From the NCBI RefSeq assembly GCF_004362245.1, contig NZ_SNWM01000001.1, forward strand, positions 248,001-312,000: a stretch of DNA of 64,000 nt, in the 5' to 3' direction. The DNA is from Pedobacter duraquae (GTDB taxonomy: Bacteria > Bacteroidota > Bacteroidia > Sphingobacteriales > Sphingobacteriaceae). The notes under the pieces are model-generated. The model had not been told where the DNA came from. It made no database searches and worked only from the letters and a program-made list of their open reading frames with translations. Below, piece after piece: positions 10,515 to 26,192 of the stretch. Position 1 is the first letter of the stretch. Each line of letters begins with the position of its first letter. The translations under genes and the position numbers were made by a program.

Positions 10515-11864
10515 CTATAAAAGGTCATTCGCTAAATTCGCAAGTTCGCTGCGCTCTCCTTTTTCCAGCGTGATGTGCGCATAAAGGGGATGATCTTTTG
10601 CATGCTCAATCAAATAAGAAAGCCCGTTGCTCTCTGCGTCAAGATATGGCGTGTCTATTTGGTAAATGTCTCCCGTAAAAACAATCTTGGTACCCTCTCC
10701 CGCCCTGGAAATTATCGTTTTAATTTCGTGTGGCGTCAGGTTTTGTGCCTCATCCACGATAAAAAAGATCCGGCTAAGGGTTCTGCCCCTGATATAGGCT
10801 AACGGAGCAACAACAATCTTTTCTGTATTGACAAACTCATCAATACGGGCTTGCGACTTCATATCTGCGTGTTGTTCCTTAATAAAACGGAGATTATCCC
10901 ATATCGGCGCCATATAAGGATCCATCTTTGATTTAATGTCACCAGGCAAAAAGCCCAGATCCTTATTGCTCAGCGGCACCACAGGCCGGGTAATGTATAT
11001 TTGCCTATACAGCTTGCGTTGTTCAAGGGCCGCAGCTATAGCAAGCAACGTCTTCCCTGTACCCGCTTTACCCTGTATGGTGATCAATTTTAAGTCGGGA
11101 TTTAGCAAAGCATGAATGGCAAAAGACTGCTCGAAGTTTCTTGGAGTGATGTGAAATACCGGCTGCGATTTAACTGCATCCAGCTGTTCTTTTGCGGCAT
11201 TGTAATATGCCATAGCTGTTTTGCGACCGTGTTTTAATAAAATAAACTTATTACTTGCTGATGCCGACATGTCCAATGTTTCTGTGCTAATGGAGCCGGC
11301 AGACCTCAGTTCCAGAAATAGTTCTTCAGGCAGCTTAGCCATAGTAGTCTGCCCGGTATACAACTCATTCAGGTTTTTCACTTTTCCCGTTTCGTAATCC
11401 TCCGCAAAAAGATCCAATGATTTTGCTTTTAGGCGCAGGCAGATATCTTTTGAAACAAGCACAACCTGCTTATCCGGAAATTCTTGTTTCAAGCCTAGTG
11501 CGGAGTTCAATATTCGGTGATCGATCTTTCCTGCCCCAAAAACCTGCTCTGCATTTACCTGCCCTGGATGGTTGTCCATAACAACTTTGAACCGCCCCTC
11601 ATTGGTTCCCGCAATTGGGTTCCACTGATTCATAATCTGATTGCCCGATGCCTGATCAATCAAGCGTATAAAACTGCGCGCTTCTGCATTACGCGTCTCG
11701 TTGCCAGTCTTCATATTGTCTAATTCTTCCAATACCTGAATTGGAATGGCAACATCATGTTCCTGAAAGTTACTAAAAGCAGTATGATCATATAAGATCA
11801 CTGAAGTATCCAGGACAAAGATTTTTTTTTGCGTGGATGGACGCCGGGCAGAGGTTTTACGCAT
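10515..11864 (-). CDS. PIN-PhoH family ATPase/ribonuclease (YlaK/PhoH2-like)
   Basis: A cytosolic protein of 449 residues with two domains. The N-terminal PIN nuclease domain (about 14-150) starts FVLDTSVILYD, where Asp19 is the first metal-binding acid, followed by VLEELDNMK. The C-terminal PhoH ATPase domain (about 235-449) has a Walker A motif GKAGTGKT at 265-272 and a Walker B with VDEAQN near 370. This architecture is that of PhoH2 proteins, for which RNA helicase and RNase activity was shown in mycobacteria; the role here is inferred. It is a single gene, with 249 bp of quiet sequence downstream of the FISUMP gene. Confidence 0.92.
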   Translation of the reverse strand: MRKTSARRPSTQKKIFVLDTSVILYDHTAFSNFQEHDVAIPIQVLEELDNMKTGNETRNAEARSFIRLIDQASGNQIMNQWNPIAGTNEGRFKVVMDNHPGQVNAEQVFGAGKIDHRILNSALGLKQEFPDKQVVLVSKDICLRLKAKSLDLFAEDYETGKVKNLNELYTGQTTMAKLPEELFLELRSAGSISTETLDMSASASNKFILLKHGRKTAMAYYNAAKEQLDAVKSQPVFHITPRNFEQSFAIHALLNPDLKLITIQGKAGTGKTLLAIAAALEQRKLYRQIYITRPVVPLSNKDLGFLPGDIKSKMDPYMAPIWDNLRFIKEQHADMKSQARIDEFVNTEKIVVAPLAYIRGRTLSRIFFIVDEAQNLTPHEIKTIISRAGEGTKIVFTGDIYQIDTPYLDAESNGLSYLIEHAKDHPLYAHITLEKGERSELANLANDLL

Positions 11865-15135: not shown

Positions 15136-15154
15136 CCATAGTCTAACAAAGAAG

Positions 15155-15220
15155 ACACAACTAACTTATAAACAGGTTAATCACATGATATGCACACGTT
15201 ACTAACAGCTTATCAACATC
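15155..15220. repeat. 66-nt array of five 11-bp units, copy 1 (DnaA-box-like)
   Basis: From 15166 the sequence reads as five successive 11-mers: TTATAAACAGG, TTAATCACATG, ATATGCACACG, TTACTAACAGC, TTATCAACATC. The TTA and ACA positions recur, resembling the DnaA box TTATNCACA. The 66-nt block is about 85% identical to 18199-18264 in the same orientation. It sits between phzF and the mscS start. Confidence 0.75.
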
Positions 15221-15335
15221 AAAAAGTTCAAAAACTGAGATTTATAAACCTACCATATCTGCCAGCGATGTTTTGCAGAGTTGTTTTGATATCAGTATAT
15301 TATATCCTAATTTTAACAAAATCTACCCTAATCCC

Positions 15336-17810
15336 ATGATAAAATCAGCGCTCCGCTCCTTTTTGTTGTTCACATTTTTTTTTGTCGCACACATTTCGCT
15401 GTCGGCACAAACTAAGGATGCTCTTCCTGGCTCCAAAAAGGCGGATACCGTAAAAACTAGCTTTGTTGCCAGAATGCAGGAATTTGCGCGCAAAGAAGCA
15501 AAAGAAAGCGCTCGGGATTTTGAGAATGATAAAGCAATCCTTGCGCAACACAAAATCCTGGACGAAGTCAAAAAGACAATGCAAGTCGCAAAAAGCTACC
15601 TCCGAACCGGTGTAGATACCACAGGTGCCCGGGCGCAACTTATTGAAATCGAAGAAAATTATAAAACTGCAGTAGATGGGGTCCTTACAAATAAAGGAAC
15701 GGCACAAACCTTTAGAAACGTTACTGCAACATCAAAAATCTTAAAGGAATTACTCGGCAAAGCACAACAACGCAAAGTGCGACTGGATATGCATCAGCAG
15801 CAGTTAAATACATTTCGTTATCAGCTCGACTCCCTGCTCAATGCACCTTCGCTATTTAAATTCTCAACAGACTCTGCTGTACTTATCAAATATCTGCAAC
15901 AACTTGGCGTCGTTGCTTATGAAGTACATCCGATAGATAGCGCATTAAAACGTGCCAGCAATAATGTGCAAGGCCTCCTTAACCAGGTCAATATGCAGGT
16001 GTTTAAGTTGCAAACAAGTTCAGATGAGATTGCACAATACCAATTGGCAATGGCGAACAATACTTTTAAACGGGAATTTGGAAATATCTGGGAGCCTGCA
16101 TCAAACTATCGCCCATTTGATGAAATCATAGATCAGGCAAGCAAAAAAGGTATGCTCACCCTCTATTTCTATGCTGAAAACAATCTGGGTAAACTCGCTA
16201 TTCTTTGCGTACTCATCCTAACTTCTTTCATTTATCTACGCTCATTGAAACAAATCTATATAGAAAAGGAACTGCTTAATGCCGACATGGAGGGGCAGTT
16301 GGTATTGCGATACCCGCTGTTTTCTGCGCTGCTGATCGTGATCAACATGTTTCAGTTCATGTTTCCTGCAGCGCCCTTCATCCTGAATGTTATTTTCTGG
16401 CTGATCGCCTGTGTTAGCCTCACCATTCTATTCTATAAATTCATTACCCGTTATTGGATGAACATTTGGCTGATCATGGTCGGACTGTTCCTGATAACGG
16501 CATTCGACAACCTGATTCTGCAGGCTTCAAGAGCCGAAAGATGGTTTATGCTGCTTGTGTCAATCACCGGTTTCATTGTTGGTACTACAGTACTATTCCG
16601 GGGTAAAAAAGAAGAACTCAGAGAGAAGCTGATCCTTATTTCTATCGGATTTATGGCTTTTCTTGAACTTGCCTCTACCCTGGCCAACCTATACGGTAGA
16701 TATAATCTTTCCAAAACACTACTGATCAGCGGCTTCCTAAATGTCGTCATTGCAATATTATTTCTGTGGACAATCAGATTGATCAACGAAGGGCTCTTTC
16801 TTGCCTTCAGTGTATACACACGACAAGATAAAAAGCTGTTTTACTTAAATTTCGACAGGGTTGGAACAAAGGTTCCTCCTTTATTTTATTTTCTGCTCAT
16901 TGCCGGATGGATTGTCTTGTTTGGTCGCAACTTTGCCGGGTTCGACTATATCGCCGAACCTCTGAGAGACTTTTTCAGTCGTTCCCGCACCATTGGTGAT
17001 TATACGTTCAGTATCAATAATTTATTGTTATTTATCGTGATCATGGCAATATCTGTCATTATCTCTAAGGTTGTTTCTTTTTTTGCATCCGACAAAAGCC
17101 TGACAACGACAAAAAGTAACAAACAAGAAAAACAGGGACTTGGTAGTTGGCTCCTATTGATTCGCATCTCCATCTTAGCAATAGGTCTTTTTCTTGCTGT
17201 TGCAGCCGCCGGAATCCCGGTAGACCGCATCACCATCGTTCTTGGCGCCCTTGGAGTCGGAATAGGTTTCGGTCTACAAACGCTGGTCAACAATCTCGTA
17301 AGCGGACTGATCATTGCTTTTGAAAAACCTGTCAATGTAGGAGATGTTGTTGATGTAAGCGGACAAGGCGGTATTATGAAGTCCATCGGCTTTAGAAGCA
17401 GTATTATTTCCACCTGGGAAGGTGCAGATATGGTAATGCCTAACGGCGACCTCCTCAACTCGCACCTCATGAACTGGTCGCTAGCCGGCAACCGCAAAAG
17501 AATGTCTATAGCCATAGGCATCTCTTACGATGCAGATCTGGAAAAATGCAGACAGCTCCTCAATGGAATTCTTGACGCAGAAGAACGGGTTAGCAAATAC
17601 CCGGCAGCAGTAGTGCAATATGAACAATTTGGAAGCAGTGCCATCGACGTAAAAATTCATTTCTGGACCAAGCATATCGCTGAGGCCTATGCGACAAAAA
17701 GCGATCTTATTATCGTGATCAACACCACACTGAAAGAAAATGGAATAACAATCCCTTTCCCAAGGCAGGATGTGCATTACCAGCCAATTGATCCACCAAA
17801 TAGCATTTAA
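15336..17810 (+). CDS. Large MscS-family mechanosensitive channel
   Basis: An inner-membrane channel of 824 residues. I start at the ATG at 15336, which opens a clean signal peptide (IKSALRSFLLFTFF ... LSAQ); an upstream TTG at 15273 would bury it. Residues about 25-270 form a periplasmic, helix-rich domain rich in Gln, Lys and Ala. Then about nine to eleven membrane segments follow. The MscS core (about 620-810) shows the pore helix ALGVGIGFGLQTLVNNLVSG and the beta-domain start EKPVNVGDVVDV. It opens under membrane tension to release solutes, as in the MscK/YbdG-type long homologues. It is flanked by the two 66-nt arrays and followed by a strong terminator. Confidence 0.93.
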   Translation: MIKSALRSFLLFTFFFVAHISLSAQTKDALPGSKKADTVKTSFVARMQEFARKEAKESARDFENDKAILAQHKILDEVKKTMQVAKSYLRTGVDTTGARAQLIEIEENYKTAVDGVLTNKGTAQTFRNVTATSKILKELLGKAQQRKVRLDMHQQQLNTFRYQLDSLLNAPSLFKFSTDSAVLIKYLQQLGVVAYEVHPIDSALKRASNNVQGLLNQVNMQVFKLQTSSDEIAQYQLAMANNTFKREFGNIWEPASNYRPFDEIIDQASKKGMLTLYFYAENNLGKLAILCVLILTSFIYLRSLKQIYIEKELLNADMEGQLVLRYPLFSALLIVINMFQFMFPAAPFILNVIFWLIACVSLTILFYKFITRYWMNIWLIMVGLFLITAFDNLILQASRAERWFMLLVSITGFIVGTTVLFRGKKEELREKLILISIGFMAFLELASTLANLYGRYNLSKTLLISGFLNVVIAILFLWTIRLINEGLFLAFSVYTRQDKKLFYLNFDRVGTKVPPLFYFLLIAGWIVLFGRNFAGFDYIAEPLRDFFSRSRTIGDYTFSINNLLLFIVIMAISVIISKVVSFFASDKSLTTTKSNKQEKQGLGSWLLLIRISILAIGLFLAVAAAGIPVDRITIVLGALGVGIGFGLQTLVNNLVSGLIIAFEKPVNVGDVVDVSGQGGIMKSIGFRSSIISTWEGADMVMPNGDLLNSHLMNWSLAGNRKRMSIAIGISYDADLEKCRQLLNGILDAEERVSKYPAAVVQYEQFGSSAIDVKIHFWTKHIAEAYATKSDLIIVINTTLKENGITIPFPRQDVHYQPIDPPNSI

Positions 17811-17813
17811 CAA

Positions 17814-17864
17814 GAAAACGGAGCCCGTCACTTTCGATCTGGTACTCCGTTTTCGTTTCATTTA
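17814..17864 (+). terminator. Terminator of the mscS-type gene
   Basis: GAAAACGGAG (17814-17823) pairs perfectly with CTCCGTTTTC (17855-17864), with a 31-nt loop. It begins three bases after the stop. The flanks are A-rich and T-rich, so it may also work for the opposite strand. Confidence 0.7.
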
Positions 17865-17952
17865 AAGCCTTAGCTCTATATAAAACATCAATATTCTGTA
17901 TTTAACTTTCCGGTATTGCTTGCGCAAGCTCCTTCTGCTTTACTCATGATCC

Positions 17953-18129
17953 CTATTCCATAGAATATTGATCCGATTTAAGGTCTGTCTCAGATTCAGC
18001 CCGGTGCACCTTTCTCAAGGTAACCAATACCATTTCTCTGTTGCCAATGAAGCTGATATATACTGATCCGTCGATATCTCCAGAAACCTTTTTGCCCTGA
18101 GGCAAGTATTTCTTTTTGGATGATTTCAT
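17953..18129 (-). CDS. Possible small protein of 58 residues
   Basis: A short ORF that I read by hand on the minus strand: it begins MKSSKKKYLPQGKKVSG and continues DIDGSVYISFIGNREMVLV, ending SDQYSME. The start is strongly basic, the middle has alternating hydrophobic residues compatible with two or three beta strands, and the end is acidic. Composition is like a real protein rather than a chance reading, but a competing longer frame (17996-18217) exists in the same DNA. I recognise no family. It would be transcribed toward the mscS terminator, from the region that holds the second 11-bp-unit array. It could instead be a fragment of a decayed gene. Confidence 0.35.
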   Translation of the reverse strand: MKSSKKKYLPQGKKVSGDIDGSVYISFIGNREMVLVTLRKVHRAESETDLKSDQYSME

Positions 18130-18198
18130 TCAGACTGTCAAAGTACTTCCTAATTGATAAACCTAAGTTACGTATTGAACCGTTTCCAACCAAATAAA

Positions 18199-18264
18199 AC
18201 ACAAGTAACTTATACACAAGTTAATCACATGATATTAACACGTTACCAACAGGTTATCAACAGT
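18199..18264. repeat. 66-nt array of five 11-bp units, copy 2 (DnaA-box-like)
   Basis: From 18210 five successive 11-mers read TTATACACAAG, TTAATCACATG, ATATTAACACG, TTACCAACAGG, TTATCAACAGT. The first contains TTATACACA, an exact DnaA-box consensus match. Differences from copy 1 fall mostly in the variable positions while TTA and ACA are kept. It lies between the small ORF at 18129 and the oxalate decarboxylase gene. Confidence 0.75.
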
Positions 18265-19877: not shown

Positions 19878-20004
19878 TAAAGCACTGAGAAAGACCCGGA
19901 TTCCATATGTCAGAATCAAGTCATTATGCATCGTATCTATTTGTTTTTCAGATGCTTATTTGTACATTGATTTTATTATATTAAATCATCTTAAACTTCA
20001 GATT

Positions 20005-20640
20005 ATGGCATTTGCACCAAACGGACTAGGGGGACCGATTTATGGTCGACTAGGGAATTACGTATATTACTTGCTTAACGGCGAACCGGTAGTACGCAAA
20101 ATCGGACGAAGAATTGGACCACGAACTCCACAGGAAATAAGATCATCGAATAGACAGAGTTTACTGGTCCATTTTTTCAACCCTATGAAGGCTTTTATTA
20201 AGAAAGGCTTTGGAGCCGCGGCTGAACACACTACTTCAAACTATCATAATCTGGCAATGTCTTACAACAACCCTAAAGCTATCGCTGTAGACACTGATCA
20301 TCCAACTATTTTGTACGACAAGATATTATTAGCTAAAGGCGAGCTGCTGGAACCTGCAGCTCCAAATGCGGTTATCGATGGGGATAATATACTGTTTACC
20401 TGGGAATACGACGAAGATTTACACTGGAACTTTTCTGAAGACCGGGTGATGATGCTTATTCATTTCCCTGAAAAAGGCGCCTCTATATTTAAGATGACTG
20501 GTGCTGAACGTGCGCAGGGTTATGACACATTCCATTTGCTACCAGGTATGACGACTGAAAAAATGCATATTTACGTTGCTTTCTGTTCAAGCTATTCGGA
20601 AGAAGTGTCCAATAGCATATATATCCGGGAGATCAATTAG
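20005..20640 (+). CDS. DUF6266 family protein, first of a tandem pair
   Basis: A 211-residue protein; I use the ATG at 20005 and reject a TTG at 19960. The N-terminus has the family pattern of a Gly-rich start and an aromatic/Arg block (LGGPIYGRLGNYVYY, then RRIGPRTPQEIRSSNRQS). The C-terminal part (about 115-211) looks like an immunoglobulin-type beta domain: FTWEYDEDLHWN, DRVMMLIHFPEKG, GAERAQGYDTFHL and the closing EEVSNSIYIREIN. These are features I associate with DUF6266, a Bacteroidota family of unknown function often found in several copies. No signal peptide is visible. It is followed 37 bp later by a second member. Confidence 0.75.
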   Translation: MAFAPNGLGGPIYGRLGNYVYYLLNGEPVVRKIGRRIGPRTPQEIRSSNRQSLLVHFFNPMKAFIKKGFGAAAEHTTSNYHNLAMSYNNPKAIAVDTDHPTILYDKILLAKGELLEPAAPNAVIDGDNILFTWEYDEDLHWNFSEDRVMMLIHFPEKGASIFKMTGAERAQGYDTFHLLPGMTTEKMHIYVAFCSSYSEEVSNSIYIREIN

Positions 20641-20677
20641 GCGAAATTGTTAATCAACAGAGTAAAATCAAATTGTT

Positions 20678-21304
20678 ATGGCATCATATACAGAAGGCAT
20701 TAACGGACCATTCACAGGAAAAGTTGCTTCAGTAATCGGCACATCAAACCGAGGAAAAGCTGTTATGAAAGGCGTAGGGGACATAAGGATAGACAATCCT
20801 ACAGAAGCCCAATTGTTATCACGAGACCGGCTTTCGACGATGACAAGTTTCCTTACCCGTATATCGACAGTACTACAAATTGGCTTTCCGGCGAAACGGA
20901 CGGGCCTGACGTCCGTTAATCAGGCGATAAAGATTAATATGAGAAATGCGCTTGATTTCTCTGCGCCCACCGCCGAAATAAACTACCCTAAGCTGCAAAT
21001 TGGCAAGGGAAGTCTTCCAGCTTCTTACAAACCAGGGATACAAGTAGCGGGGAATTTTCAAGTGAGGTTTTTCTGGGATCATTTTCCGATGAGTAATCCA
21101 AATGATCTCGTCACAATTCTCTGCTACTGCCCTGCTCTTAATAACGCTCATCGTTTCATTAACACTGCAAAACGTTCGGCCCTAGAGTTTTCAGCTAACT
21201 TAGGAGATGCGTTTCTAGATAAAGAAATCCATAGTTGGATCCTATTCTCGAATGGAACAATCGCCAGCAATAGCATGTACCTTGGTAAACTTATAGTAAC
21301 GTAA
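20678..21304 (+). CDS. DUF6266 family protein, second of a tandem pair
   Basis: A 208-residue protein with the typical DUF6266 opening GINGPFTGKVASVIGTSNRGKAV and an N-terminal helical block DNPTEAQLLSRDRLSTMTSF (split here as markers). The C-terminal beta domain shows FQVRFFWDHFPMSNPNDLV and ends SNSMYLGKLIVT, matching the VSxSxYxG ending of the family. It is clearly diverged from the first copy, so the pair is old. Function is unknown; the two probably share one transcript. No signal peptide is present. The next 135 bases hold no obvious signal. Confidence 0.8.
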   Translation: MASYTEGINGPFTGKVASVIGTSNRGKAVMKGVGDIRIDNPTEAQLLSRDRLSTMTSFLTRISTVLQIGFPAKRTGLTSVNQAIKINMRNALDFSAPTAEINYPKLQIGKGSLPASYKPGIQVAGNFQVRFFWDHFPMSNPNDLVTILCYCPALNNAHRFINTAKRSALEFSANLGDAFLDKEIHSWILFSNGTIASNSMYLGKLIVT

Positions 21305-23870: not shown

Positions 23871-24115
23871 AAAGGCTGTAAAAAAAGAAAGGGTTGTTCC
23901 ATCCAGACACATCCCTATTCTAACCAAATATAAACCTGTATGAACGGGTTTTCCTTTATATCTTCAAGTCACAGTTTTGACTGCTGGTTAACAGACTTGA
24001 AAATGATATGTCAATTTTAAATGTTCGATGATCCGCTGATCATCTACTTGCTGATACAAATATAAGAACTATTTCTTAGTGTACAAAATACACTATTATT
24101 TTTTTTTATAAAAAA
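23871..24115. repeat. Structured direct repeat, copy 1
   Basis: About 226 nt (23871-24096) repeat at 24365-24589 with five substitutions and one deletion. Inside are four stem-loops: AAACCTGT/ACGGGTTT (8 bp, one wobble), TTCAAGTC/GACTTGAA (8 bp, 23963-24001), GATGATC/GATCATC with loop CGCT (24027-24044), and TAGTGTA/TACACTA with loop CAAAA near 24078-24096, followed here by a T-run. No coding frame is convincing. A structured RNA or a mobile palindromic element are both possible. Confidence 0.8.
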
Positions 24116-24296
24116 CACGAGAACTACAGAAGAAATCGAAGTTCTAATCCGATTTTCTGTTAAAAAACCTCTTTAAAGCAGTATTTTGACAAGAGGACAC
24201 CATAAATTGGATCAAAAATTCAAATTTAGTCAATTACAAATGACATTAATATGATAATACCGTTTTGGTTTTCGGTATAAAAAATCAAAAAAATAC

Positions 24297-24338
24297 GAAG
24301 TGATAAAGATTATGAAAGAAGTGATAAAGATTATGAAA
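24297..24338. repeat. Two tandem copies of a 21-bp unit
   Basis: The unit GAAGTGATAAAGATTATGAAA occurs twice in direct succession between the two large repeat copies. It is too short to say more; slippage is the simplest origin. Confidence 0.8.
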
Positions 24339-24364
24339 AGTAAATGGAAGATAGAGAGAAGAGA

Positions 24365-24607
24365 AAAGGCTATAAAAAAAGAAAGGGTTGTTCCATCCAG
24401 ACACATCCCTATTCTAACCAAATATAAACCTGTATGAACGGGTTTTCCTTTATATCTTCAAGTCGCAGTTTTGACTGCTGGTTAACAGACTTGAAAATGA
24501 TATGTCAATTTTAATGTTCGATGATCCGCTGATCATCTACTTGCTGATACAAATGTAAGAACTTTTTGTTAGTGTACAAAATACACTATGAATATTTTTA
24601 TAAAAAA
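24365..24607. repeat. Structured direct repeat, copy 2
   Basis: Same orientation as copy 1, starting 494 nt later. All four stem-loops are kept exactly: the observed substitutions fall outside the paired arms or in loops as far as I can align by eye. The T-run after the last hairpin is weaker here. Confidence 0.8.
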
Positions 24608-25472
24608 GTTATTAGCATTAATTCATGTATCCAAATATCATGCCGTTTGGCTAACAGTGTTGCATCCGCAATACTTAACTTCTGTAAAAAAACGAATTAT
24701 TTCTGACATTTGATGTAAAAAATTAAATAAAAATATTTTTTTAACCTTATAATTCGGAATTTGATTATCTCATCCCCTATTTAATTGGCGTTATCCTTCA
24801 TTAGCAAGAATTTTTAGCGCTTTCAACCCCAATATTGAGCAATAAAAAATTGAAATCCGACAAAAAGACGAATTCAGACAAAATAACTAATCAACAAAAC
24901 AATAAATAACCTTACATAATAGGATACACAATACACTTTACCGAACTCAATGTTAAGTTAAACACCATAAATCAAAATTATACCAACAAAAACTCATAAA
25001 ATGATCAATAAACACTCAATAAAATCATATTTTTCGGTCAAAATTTAAAAAATAACAATAATTTGAACTTATTTCAAGAAATAACACCACTAAAAAACCT
25101 ATATGATCCAAAAAACAAAATTGGTCAACCAAATAAATACTATTTATTTCGATTTAGTCAGTTTTCAGAGCTACACAGATATGTATATTTATAAGAACAC
25201 TGTCTTTTAGACACAATCACGCTTTTATACAAATTTAATTTTCAGTTATCTATTAAAGGTTCAAATCCAATTTTTATTACATCCTGAATTTGATTTTAAC
25301 TTTTTTTAACGTATAGTGTGTTAAAATAATGAACCAATTGTTATTGTTATTCCTGATATTTGCGGCGTTAGGTCACAGGTTTAATTCATATGTAGCACCA
25401 GGATGACTTTATCCGTTTAGCAAGGGATAGATAACGCTAACAGCTTAGACTTAAAATCAACTATTCGTATTT
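24608..25472. other. AT-rich gene-free stretch upstream of the DUF4397 gene
   Basis: About 865 bp with very high A/T content, frequent stops in all frames and no recognisable RNA gene, repeat or terminator. It may contain the promoter and a long leader of the lipoprotein gene at 25473. I see nothing else in it. Confidence 0.6.
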
Positions 25473-26192
25473 ATGAAAATTTCTACAAACTTCAGTCACA
25501 ACAAAACCTCTCGTTTATTGATGCTGATCGGAATGACTGCAGGAGCGCTGCTTTTCAATTCATGTAAAAAAGAAGATGCTACTGTAACTGTAGCAAACGG
25601 AATTGCGCTGATCAATGCATCACCTACCCCAGCTACCTATAATGTATATCTCAATACCGATACACGTCTCAATAGTGCTGCTCTACCATTCGGCGGCACG
25701 GTATCATACAGGACGATTGCCTCTGGAAGTAATACGTTGAAATTTACTTCTGCCAGCTCCATCGAAAGCCTTCTTACAAAAACGGTGACAGTGTCTGATA
25801 ACAGCGCGTATTCGTATTTTTTAATTGGCAGCACAACTAGTACACTAGATGGTTTATTAGTGAATGATGATTTGTCTGCAACCTCTTCAGATAAAGCCTT
25901 TGTGCGTTTCATCAATTTATCTCCTGATGCGGGATCGCTTGACCTCGCTGTCACAGGTGCTACAACCAATTTAATTTCAGATAAAACTTACAAGACAGCG
26001 AGTTCATTTGTCCAGGTTGATCCAAAAACATATTCATTTGACATCAAGGACAAGGCAACTGGAGCCGTTAAAACAACATTAACTGGCGTTGTATTCGCCG
26101 CAGGATACCATTACACAGTTTTTGCTAAAGGAATGAACACACCAACCAGCCAGCAAATTGGTTTTGGTGGTCAGACTATGACCAATCAATAA
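25473..26192 (+). CDS. DUF4397 domain lipoprotein
   Basis: A 239-residue lipoprotein with a signal ending LFNSC, Cys31 being the lipidated residue, followed by KKEDA. Two beta-rich repeats of the DUF4397 type follow: ANGIALINASPTPATYNVYL at about 42 and KAFVRFINLSPDAGSLDLAV at about 141 (the marker is xRxINxSPDA). Function is unknown; members are anchored in the outer or inner membrane. It ends with a hairpin shared with the convergent prolyl oligopeptidase gene. It is preceded by 1.6 kb without genes. Confidence 0.85.
   Translation: MKISTNFSHNKTSRLLMLIGMTAGALLFNSCKKEDATVTVANGIALINASPTPATYNVYLNTDTRLNSAALPFGGTVSYRTIASGSNTLKFTSASSIESLLTKTVTVSDNSAYSYFLIGSTTSTLDGLLVNDDLSATSSDKAFVRFINLSPDAGSLDLAVTGATTNLISDKTYKTASSFVQVDPKTYSFDIKDKATGAVKTTLTGVVFAAGYHYTVFAKGMNTPTSQQIGFGGQTMTNQ

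Follow-up and report, generated by a model that had tools for sequence, protein, structure and literature searches.

Phased DnaA-box-like sites upstream of a putative structured RNA gene in Pedobacter duraquae and its relatives

We analysed two phased arrays of DnaA-box-like sites (array 1 and array 2) in a 64,000-nt stretch of the Pedobacter duraquae genome (assembly GCF_004362245.1, contig NZ_SNWM01000001.1, positions 248,001 to 312,000; this whole stretch is called the window, and its coordinates are used in Table 1). Array 2 probably acts as the control region upstream of a minus-strand RNA gene that had not been annotated. The reading that we favour, with reservations given below, is that DnaA, or a DnaA-like oligomerising protein, acts on array 2 to control this structured RNA and couples it to the replication state.

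Both arrays are built of consecutive 11-bp units, and each has core mismatches at only 1 of 30 positions (unit 3 reads ATAnnnACA), vs. eight core mismatches in the closest match among 30 Markov-shuffled versions of the window. With up to three mismatches allowed, the array pattern matches these two places only in the 5,288,263-base genome, and control patterns gave no match. BLAST identity between the two arrays is 88% across 67 bp; the copies differ at 7 of 64 aligned bases and the TTA/ACA cores are untouched, with all six differences inside the 53-bp array lying outside the core (chance 0.004). The first-pass annotation of this DNA had described two 11-bp phased arrays, whose copies differ mostly outside TTA and ACA, as DnaA-box-like sites for a protein. 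Coordinates, mismatch count, shuffles, and genome-wide uniqueness agree that the arrays are real, all seven differences avoid the cores, and motif, conservation, and geometry are consistent with phased protein-binding sites of DnaA-box type.

Leftwards from array 2 we find, in this order, a -33 element, a -7 element, the conserved RNA, and a terminator; we take the -33/-7 promoter to be of the Bacteroidota type. The same promoter elements recur among relatives: in 54 of 56 RNA loci a TTG stands 19-21 nt (20 nt in 48 loci) upstream of a -7 element TAnnTTAG (the 56-locus set leaves out L129, with short upstream DNA, and the near-duplicates L199 and L204; L124 and the second copies of L230 and L235 did not pass the 5′-core filter). 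Reading of the RNA body was limited to 58 loci, and a terminator-like hairpin is found at its end in 56 of them. The motif AAGTACTT, which lies outside the array, is the 5′ end of the RNA unit and is carried by 17 of 30 loci of the gene phoH; box clusters were seen beside it in those motif-found loci that were aligned. A small coding open reading frame (ORF) in place of the RNA was considered and rejected, as the frame common to close relatives is broken by indels or stops in others. Of the roles proposed in the first-pass annotation, the nearest is that of an operator array for flanking genes, except that the target would be the unannotated minus-strand RNA gene.

The secondary structure of the RNA was predicted from an alignment of 26 of 28 representatives (L227 and L230 were omitted for odd length), and the version counted here includes one extra pair, added by hand to the third helix. 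Three helices (a closing one, a second of long range, and a third) are predicted, together with hairpins and the terminator. Paired cells make up 86.9%, and changes on both sides are seen at 33 of 54 pairs (vs. 22.9 after shuffling). The covariation score is 0.369, compared with 0.211 (standard deviation 0.009) in shuffled and 0.06-0.14 in slid alignments; the slid control leans in favour of the structure, since this was derived from the same alignment. The RNA shows covariation beyond both shuffles and slides, as a structured noncoding RNA would. The window RNA alone has a fold z of -4.8, and its single-sequence fold recovers five of six pairs of the closing helix and three of five of the second. 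Three hairpins, at columns 310, 509, and 517, are complete in it (3/3, 5/5, and 6/6), and the terminator forms mostly in a register other than that of the alignment columns (2/14). None of the 4227 families in Rfam 15 matched the window at the gathering score. At E-values up to 5 the RNA locus gave one chance-level Rfam 15 match (E 3.4, far below the gathering score); 18 loci searched against Rfam 15 gave two tRNAs, both in L232, and five loci searched at E up to 0.5 gave no match.

The boxes keep a fixed geometry relative to this RNA. The 240 bp upstream of the 56 RNAs contain 167 exact TGTNNATAA boxes, the commonest of which are TGTTAATAA, TGTTTATAA, and TGTTGATAA. Between -130 and -35 we counted 99 exact TGTNNATAA sites, on one strand throughout, vs. 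1, 7, and 0 in control regions of equal length (the region with seven borders the distal pair of boxes) and a mean of 3 and a maximum of 8 in shuffles. Distances between sites cluster at 11-12, 21-22, and 32-33 bp, and sites matching at least six of seven positions are found at -62 to -58 in 53 of the 56 loci, at -96 to -91 in 52, and as the distal pair in 40 and 40. The search models include the promoter and the proximal boxes as well as ~47 bases from the start of the RNA. Evidence independent of the boxes comes from the distal pair (because it lies outside the search model), from the RNA body, and from the 17 phoH loci found with AAGTACTT. The sequences themselves show the arrays, the promoter elements, a conserved and covarying RNA, boxes at fixed distances, and boxes of one family here and upstream of dnaA.

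Neighbouring boxes point in the same direction with a gap of ~2 bp (11 bp per unit in the window, 11-12 bp between neighbours in relatives). In Thermotoga, DnaA molecules pair best when their boxes share a direction and are separated by 2 bp (PMC10316083; this and the other papers are cited from excerpts), and by analogy the head-to-tail spacing seen here would suit DnaA oligomers. Further, all ten dnaA loci with upstream DNA (L178 lacks it) carry two to four exact TTATNNACA boxes at -204 to -85, with the box words shown for six dnaA loci; these boxes are consistent with DnaA autoregulation in the genus. Box density was sampled in 424 kb of the genome itself (G000), 800 kb of G008, and 400 kb of G027, in stretches chosen to include these loci. 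The region upstream of the RNA is the densest box cluster in G008 (five boxes) and shares first rank with the dnaA region in G027 (four boxes each), and in G000 the dnaA region ranks first (three boxes). As for the protein, frames of ~480-520 aa for DnaA paralogues number three in G019 and G013 and two in G006, G026, G012, and G029, and the genome itself has one DnaA; G008 also has six weak DnaA-domain matches with identical scores (253-aa frame), distributed around the chromosome, which may belong to a transposon ATPase.

Beyond the window, a search model built from sequence only (array, promoter, and RNA start of 17 sequences) and used with strict filters detected the box-promoter unit in 210 of the 399 genomes of the family, representing 10 of the 25 genera sampled. 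Some genomes have second or tandem copies of the unit. For example, L229, L230, L231, and L235 have second or tandem RNA promoter units ~0.5 to 1.4 kb apart. Phased arrays like those of the window were found in 3 of 59 relatives, 0.4 to 1.6 kb from phoH, and no plasmid copy of the RNA unit matched at E 1e-5. A broader model matched 24 of 395 genomes of the class, 12 inside the family and 12 outside (E 3e-6 to 9e-4, weak). Five of the 12 outside genomes (G727, G532, G731, G544, and G456) have, in common with G036, the RNA 5′ motif CAA[AG]N(1-2)[GA]AG[AG]GATAA. In 2.68 Mb of sampled DNA this motif gave eight hits at six distinct loci and none elsewhere; it had been read off those loci, so the count is no blind test. 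A terminator-like hairpin is present in all six loci, with a stem like the family's in five, and near-boxes are visible in all six; the closing helix (P1) has an exact 7/7 partner followed by an ACGG hairpin in only one. By their sequences these six loci, in five other families, are probable distant homologues of the RNA; the out-of-family matches L272 and L276 look like coding DNA.

How such a locus might work can be sketched as follows. DnaA or a DnaA-like oligomerising protein would occupy the same-strand boxes head to tail and act on the -33/-7 promoter, which starts 15 bp from array 2. Activation would be the most likely mode of action, given boxes that stay on the upstream side of the core promoter without overlapping it; the nearest box ends upstream of the -33 element. 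The output would be a structured RNA of ~350 nt with its own terminator, whose level would track DnaA activity and hence the replication state, and the RNA would report that state or act on it. From the sequences, then, we infer DnaA binding, activation, production of the RNA, and a role of the RNA in replication control. If DnaA does drive a dedicated and conserved RNA, the replication initiator of the Bacteroidota would have an RNA among its outputs; and an RNA that has no Rfam 15 match, with its promoter unit in 10 of 25 sampled family genera, offers a concrete locus for the coupling of replication and gene expression.

Several observations weigh against control of the RNA by DnaA. Most loci were found with models that include the promoter, the proximal boxes, and the RNA start, so these features are in part circular. 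Under the strict filters 189 of 399 family genomes had no match. The single-sequence fold misses the third helix (0/5) and the column-407 hairpin (0/4). In the six out-of-family loci the densest 300 bp contain only 3, 3, 2, 1, 0, and 0 exact boxes, and in L297 the boxes point both ways. The dnaA region of G008 (three boxes) ties with two other places, and in G000 each array has no more than two exact boxes, a number that several other places reach as well. The replication origin (oriC) of the relatives was not located, as a triple-box pattern gave one match in 12 genomes and one control match, and between 3.95 and 4.35 Mb of G008 the sole three-box group falls inside a coding frame. Finally, the E. 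coli form TTATNCACA fits only 28 of the 167 boxes, and most boxes read TTATTAACA, TTATAAACA, or TTATCAACA.

This last point bears on whether the boxes might be sites for some other transcription factor whose motif is similar, in which case the RNA would be unrelated to replication. We consider this unlikely. In its favour, 139 of 167 boxes depart from TTATNCACA, and assignment to DnaA is made by motif. In the other direction, the boxes upstream of dnaA in the genus carry the same variants (the consensus TTA[T/A]NCACA, the E. coli form, is from PMC10316083 and fits the same 28 boxes), 12 of 167 boxes are exact TTATCCACA, and both spacing and direction match those of DnaA oligomer sites.

Another possibility, which we rate as equally improbable, is that the boxes act as DNA, as a site of datA/DARS type that titrates DnaA or switches its activity, and that the RNA promoter is of secondary importance or adjusts how far they are occupied. 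The E. coli sites datA, DARS1, and DARS2 are likewise non-coding DnaA-box clusters away from oriC, described as DNA elements, with sites for IHF (and Fis) in datA and DARS2 (PMC5742627). Such a role would suit an arrangement of several boxes as a distal pair and a proximal cluster whose spacing is conserved. At datA, IHF is displaced by transcription that reads through the site (PMC10950094). However, the boxes stand at a fixed distance from a conserved promoter, the RNA shows covariation that a DNA-only site would not need, and the chromosomal position is not fixed; in contrast to datA and DARS, the cluster in this family is tied to a promoter and to a structured RNA.

For DnaA control of an RNA, the nearest precedent, and the one comparable case recognised in the excerpts of open-licence literature covered, is CcnA, a 182-nt cell-cycle noncoding RNA within the Caulobacter origin, with three weak DnaA boxes inside the gene and presumed activation by CtrA (PMC8959179). 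Compared by description only, both are bacterial noncoding RNA genes tied to DnaA boxes and cell-cycle control, whereas here the boxes are upstream of the promoter, the RNA is ~350 nt long, and the locus is away from the origin. The same excerpts gave no recognised report of this RNA, or of a DnaA-box array driving a noncoding RNA in the phylum. The box arrays of oriC (the left and right halves in E. coli, and Thermotoga) are similar in their same-direction boxes ~2 bp apart (PMC10316083), but the arrays here lie off the skew minimum and are followed by a promoter and an RNA gene. The region upstream of dnaA in the genus has the same TTATNNACA variants, but its boxes point both ways and lack the 11-bp phasing.

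The first-pass annotation had also raised the possibility of a bipartite replication origin, with mscS between its halves, and suggested looking for a minimum of cumulative GC skew. We regard such an origin as very improbable. It would account for phased, same-strand DnaA-box-like arrays, and similar 11-bp arrays occur as inverted pairs at origin-looking places in other bacteria (L029, L047, L048, L061, L028, and L062). The genome itself is a draft of 13 contigs that permits no full skew plot; along contig C1, which carries the arrays, GC skew was measured in 19 stretches to the left and right of the arrays and is negative in 18, with no switch at the arrays, and dnaA (one DnaA gene) is on another contig. 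At the equivalent locus of two closed relatives (G008 and G027) the skew changes sign, plus before it and minus after it (a skew maximum); all ten 16S genes of G008, G009, and G027 are directed towards that locus, and a classical dif site lies 8-9 kb from it in all three. For example, G008 has a broad skew minimum at ~4.1-4.3 Mb and the locus opposite, at 1.69 Mb. A DnaA-box cluster is present by motif, but no cumulative skew minimum with diverging genes was found on the contig or at the equivalent locus of relatives, and array 1 has no counterpart in 59 relatives by pattern search. The gene orientation that had been noted alongside was partly as described: 7 of 10 ORFs (at least 150 aa) left of 14.3 kb are on the minus strand and plus-strand ORFs prevail from 14.3 to 33 kb, but from 33.5 to 50 kb the ORFs are again mostly minus. 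Separately, L028 (3814-4021) and L062 (7264-7482) contain facing pairs of 11-bp phased boxes (TTATCTACA and TTATTGACA) around an AT-rich spacer; by sequence, these pairs (from Porphyromonadaceae and Bacteroides metagenome-assembled genomes) look like Bacteroidales origins.

The conserved block beside the array lies near the skew maximum in G008 and G027, as a dif/XerCD site of the terminus would. We give this almost no credence: the palindromic 28-mer that resembles the bacterial dif consensus is found elsewhere, and the classical dif is a separate site, 8-9 kb off in relatives and on contig C4, not C1, in the genome itself. That dif-like sequence (CTTAACATAATATTAATTATAAGA type; G000:C4:51116-51139) is well conserved and was found in 46 of 59 genomes searched, usually once each. 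The RNA unit has no fixed chromosomal place: one group of relatives has it at 3-9 kb from dif, and others, including the genome itself, have it hundreds of kb from dif or on another contig. As far as can be seen from the draft, neither the origin nor the terminus of this genome is near the arrays.

Returning to the RNA as a product controlled by DnaA, phoH is a candidate partner by neighbourhood. In 18 genomes of the genus (including this one) for which both places are on record, the RNA unit is within 1.7 kb of phoH in 15, ~6 kb away here, and on other contigs in two; a phoH frame was seen by inspection in 11 of 20 loci fetched for variety. phoH is also adjacent in two of the six out-of-family loci (divergent in L277; on the same strand and ending shortly before the RNA in L283). 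We rejected phoH as a class-wide partner, as model R2 matched only 2 of 18 out-of-family phoH loci (L283 and L288); L288 lacks the shared 5′ motif, and L284 has no DNA beyond the phoH start. Pairing of the RNA with the dnaA translation start gave no signal in seven genomes (z -1.25 to 0.77). More speculatively, and with low confidence, this Bacteroidia-wide RNA, often beside phoH, might be the effector arm of a replication-control circuit, switched on by DnaA oligomers on a dedicated box array, in which the RNA (perhaps together with the PIN-PhoH protein) would feed back on initiation or couple growth to replication.

Table 1. Positions of the arrays, the putative RNA gene, and nearby features in the window.
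Feature	Position	Strand	Remarks
Array 2	18210-18262	+	five 11-bp units; TTATNNACA-type (DnaA-box-like) sites; upstream of RNA promoter; position conserved in relatives
-33 element TTTG of RNA promoter	18191-18194	-	20 bp upstream of -7 element; from sequence
-7 element TAACTTAG (TAnnTTnG type)	18163-18170	-	from sequence
Unannotated putative structured RNA gene, ~346 nt	17814-18159	-	conservation, covariation, fold z -4.8; start approximate
Intrinsic terminator of RNA, 10-bp stem GAAAACGGAG	17814-17854	-	hairpin found
Array 1	15166-15218	+	five consecutive 11-bp units; orphan copy between phzF and mscS
-33 copy TTTG	15147-15150	-	left of array 1; similarity to array 2 reaches approximately here
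mscS-like gene	15273-17810	+	Pfam MS_channel; between both arrays
phoH (PIN and PhoH domains)	10515-11864	-	~6 kb from RNA here; frequent neighbour in relatives

Array 1 has the boxes and the -33 element, without a -7 element or an RNA, directly after the phzF stop; its match to model R1 covers model positions 68-144 only. Judged by its sequence it is a duplicate of the box and -33 module, so far seen in this genome only, and could be the remnant of a tandem copy or of a rearrangement that placed mscS here. The first-pass annotation had suggested searching for the array near mscS in relatives; in relatives, 29 mscS-family loci (14 with 49-69% identity) showed no array within 1.5 kb, and the link is probably coincidental, with the mscS-like gene a probable bystander. 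Regulation of mscS by array 1 thus has no support from relatives; array 1 may act on mscS in this strain, and the RNA terminator may also serve mscS on the plus strand. Elsewhere in the window, the G+C content dips locally to 0.314 at 24001-26000, where there is a perfect 21-bp tandem duplication (24297-24338), and two neighbouring DUF6266 genes are located at 19960-21304.

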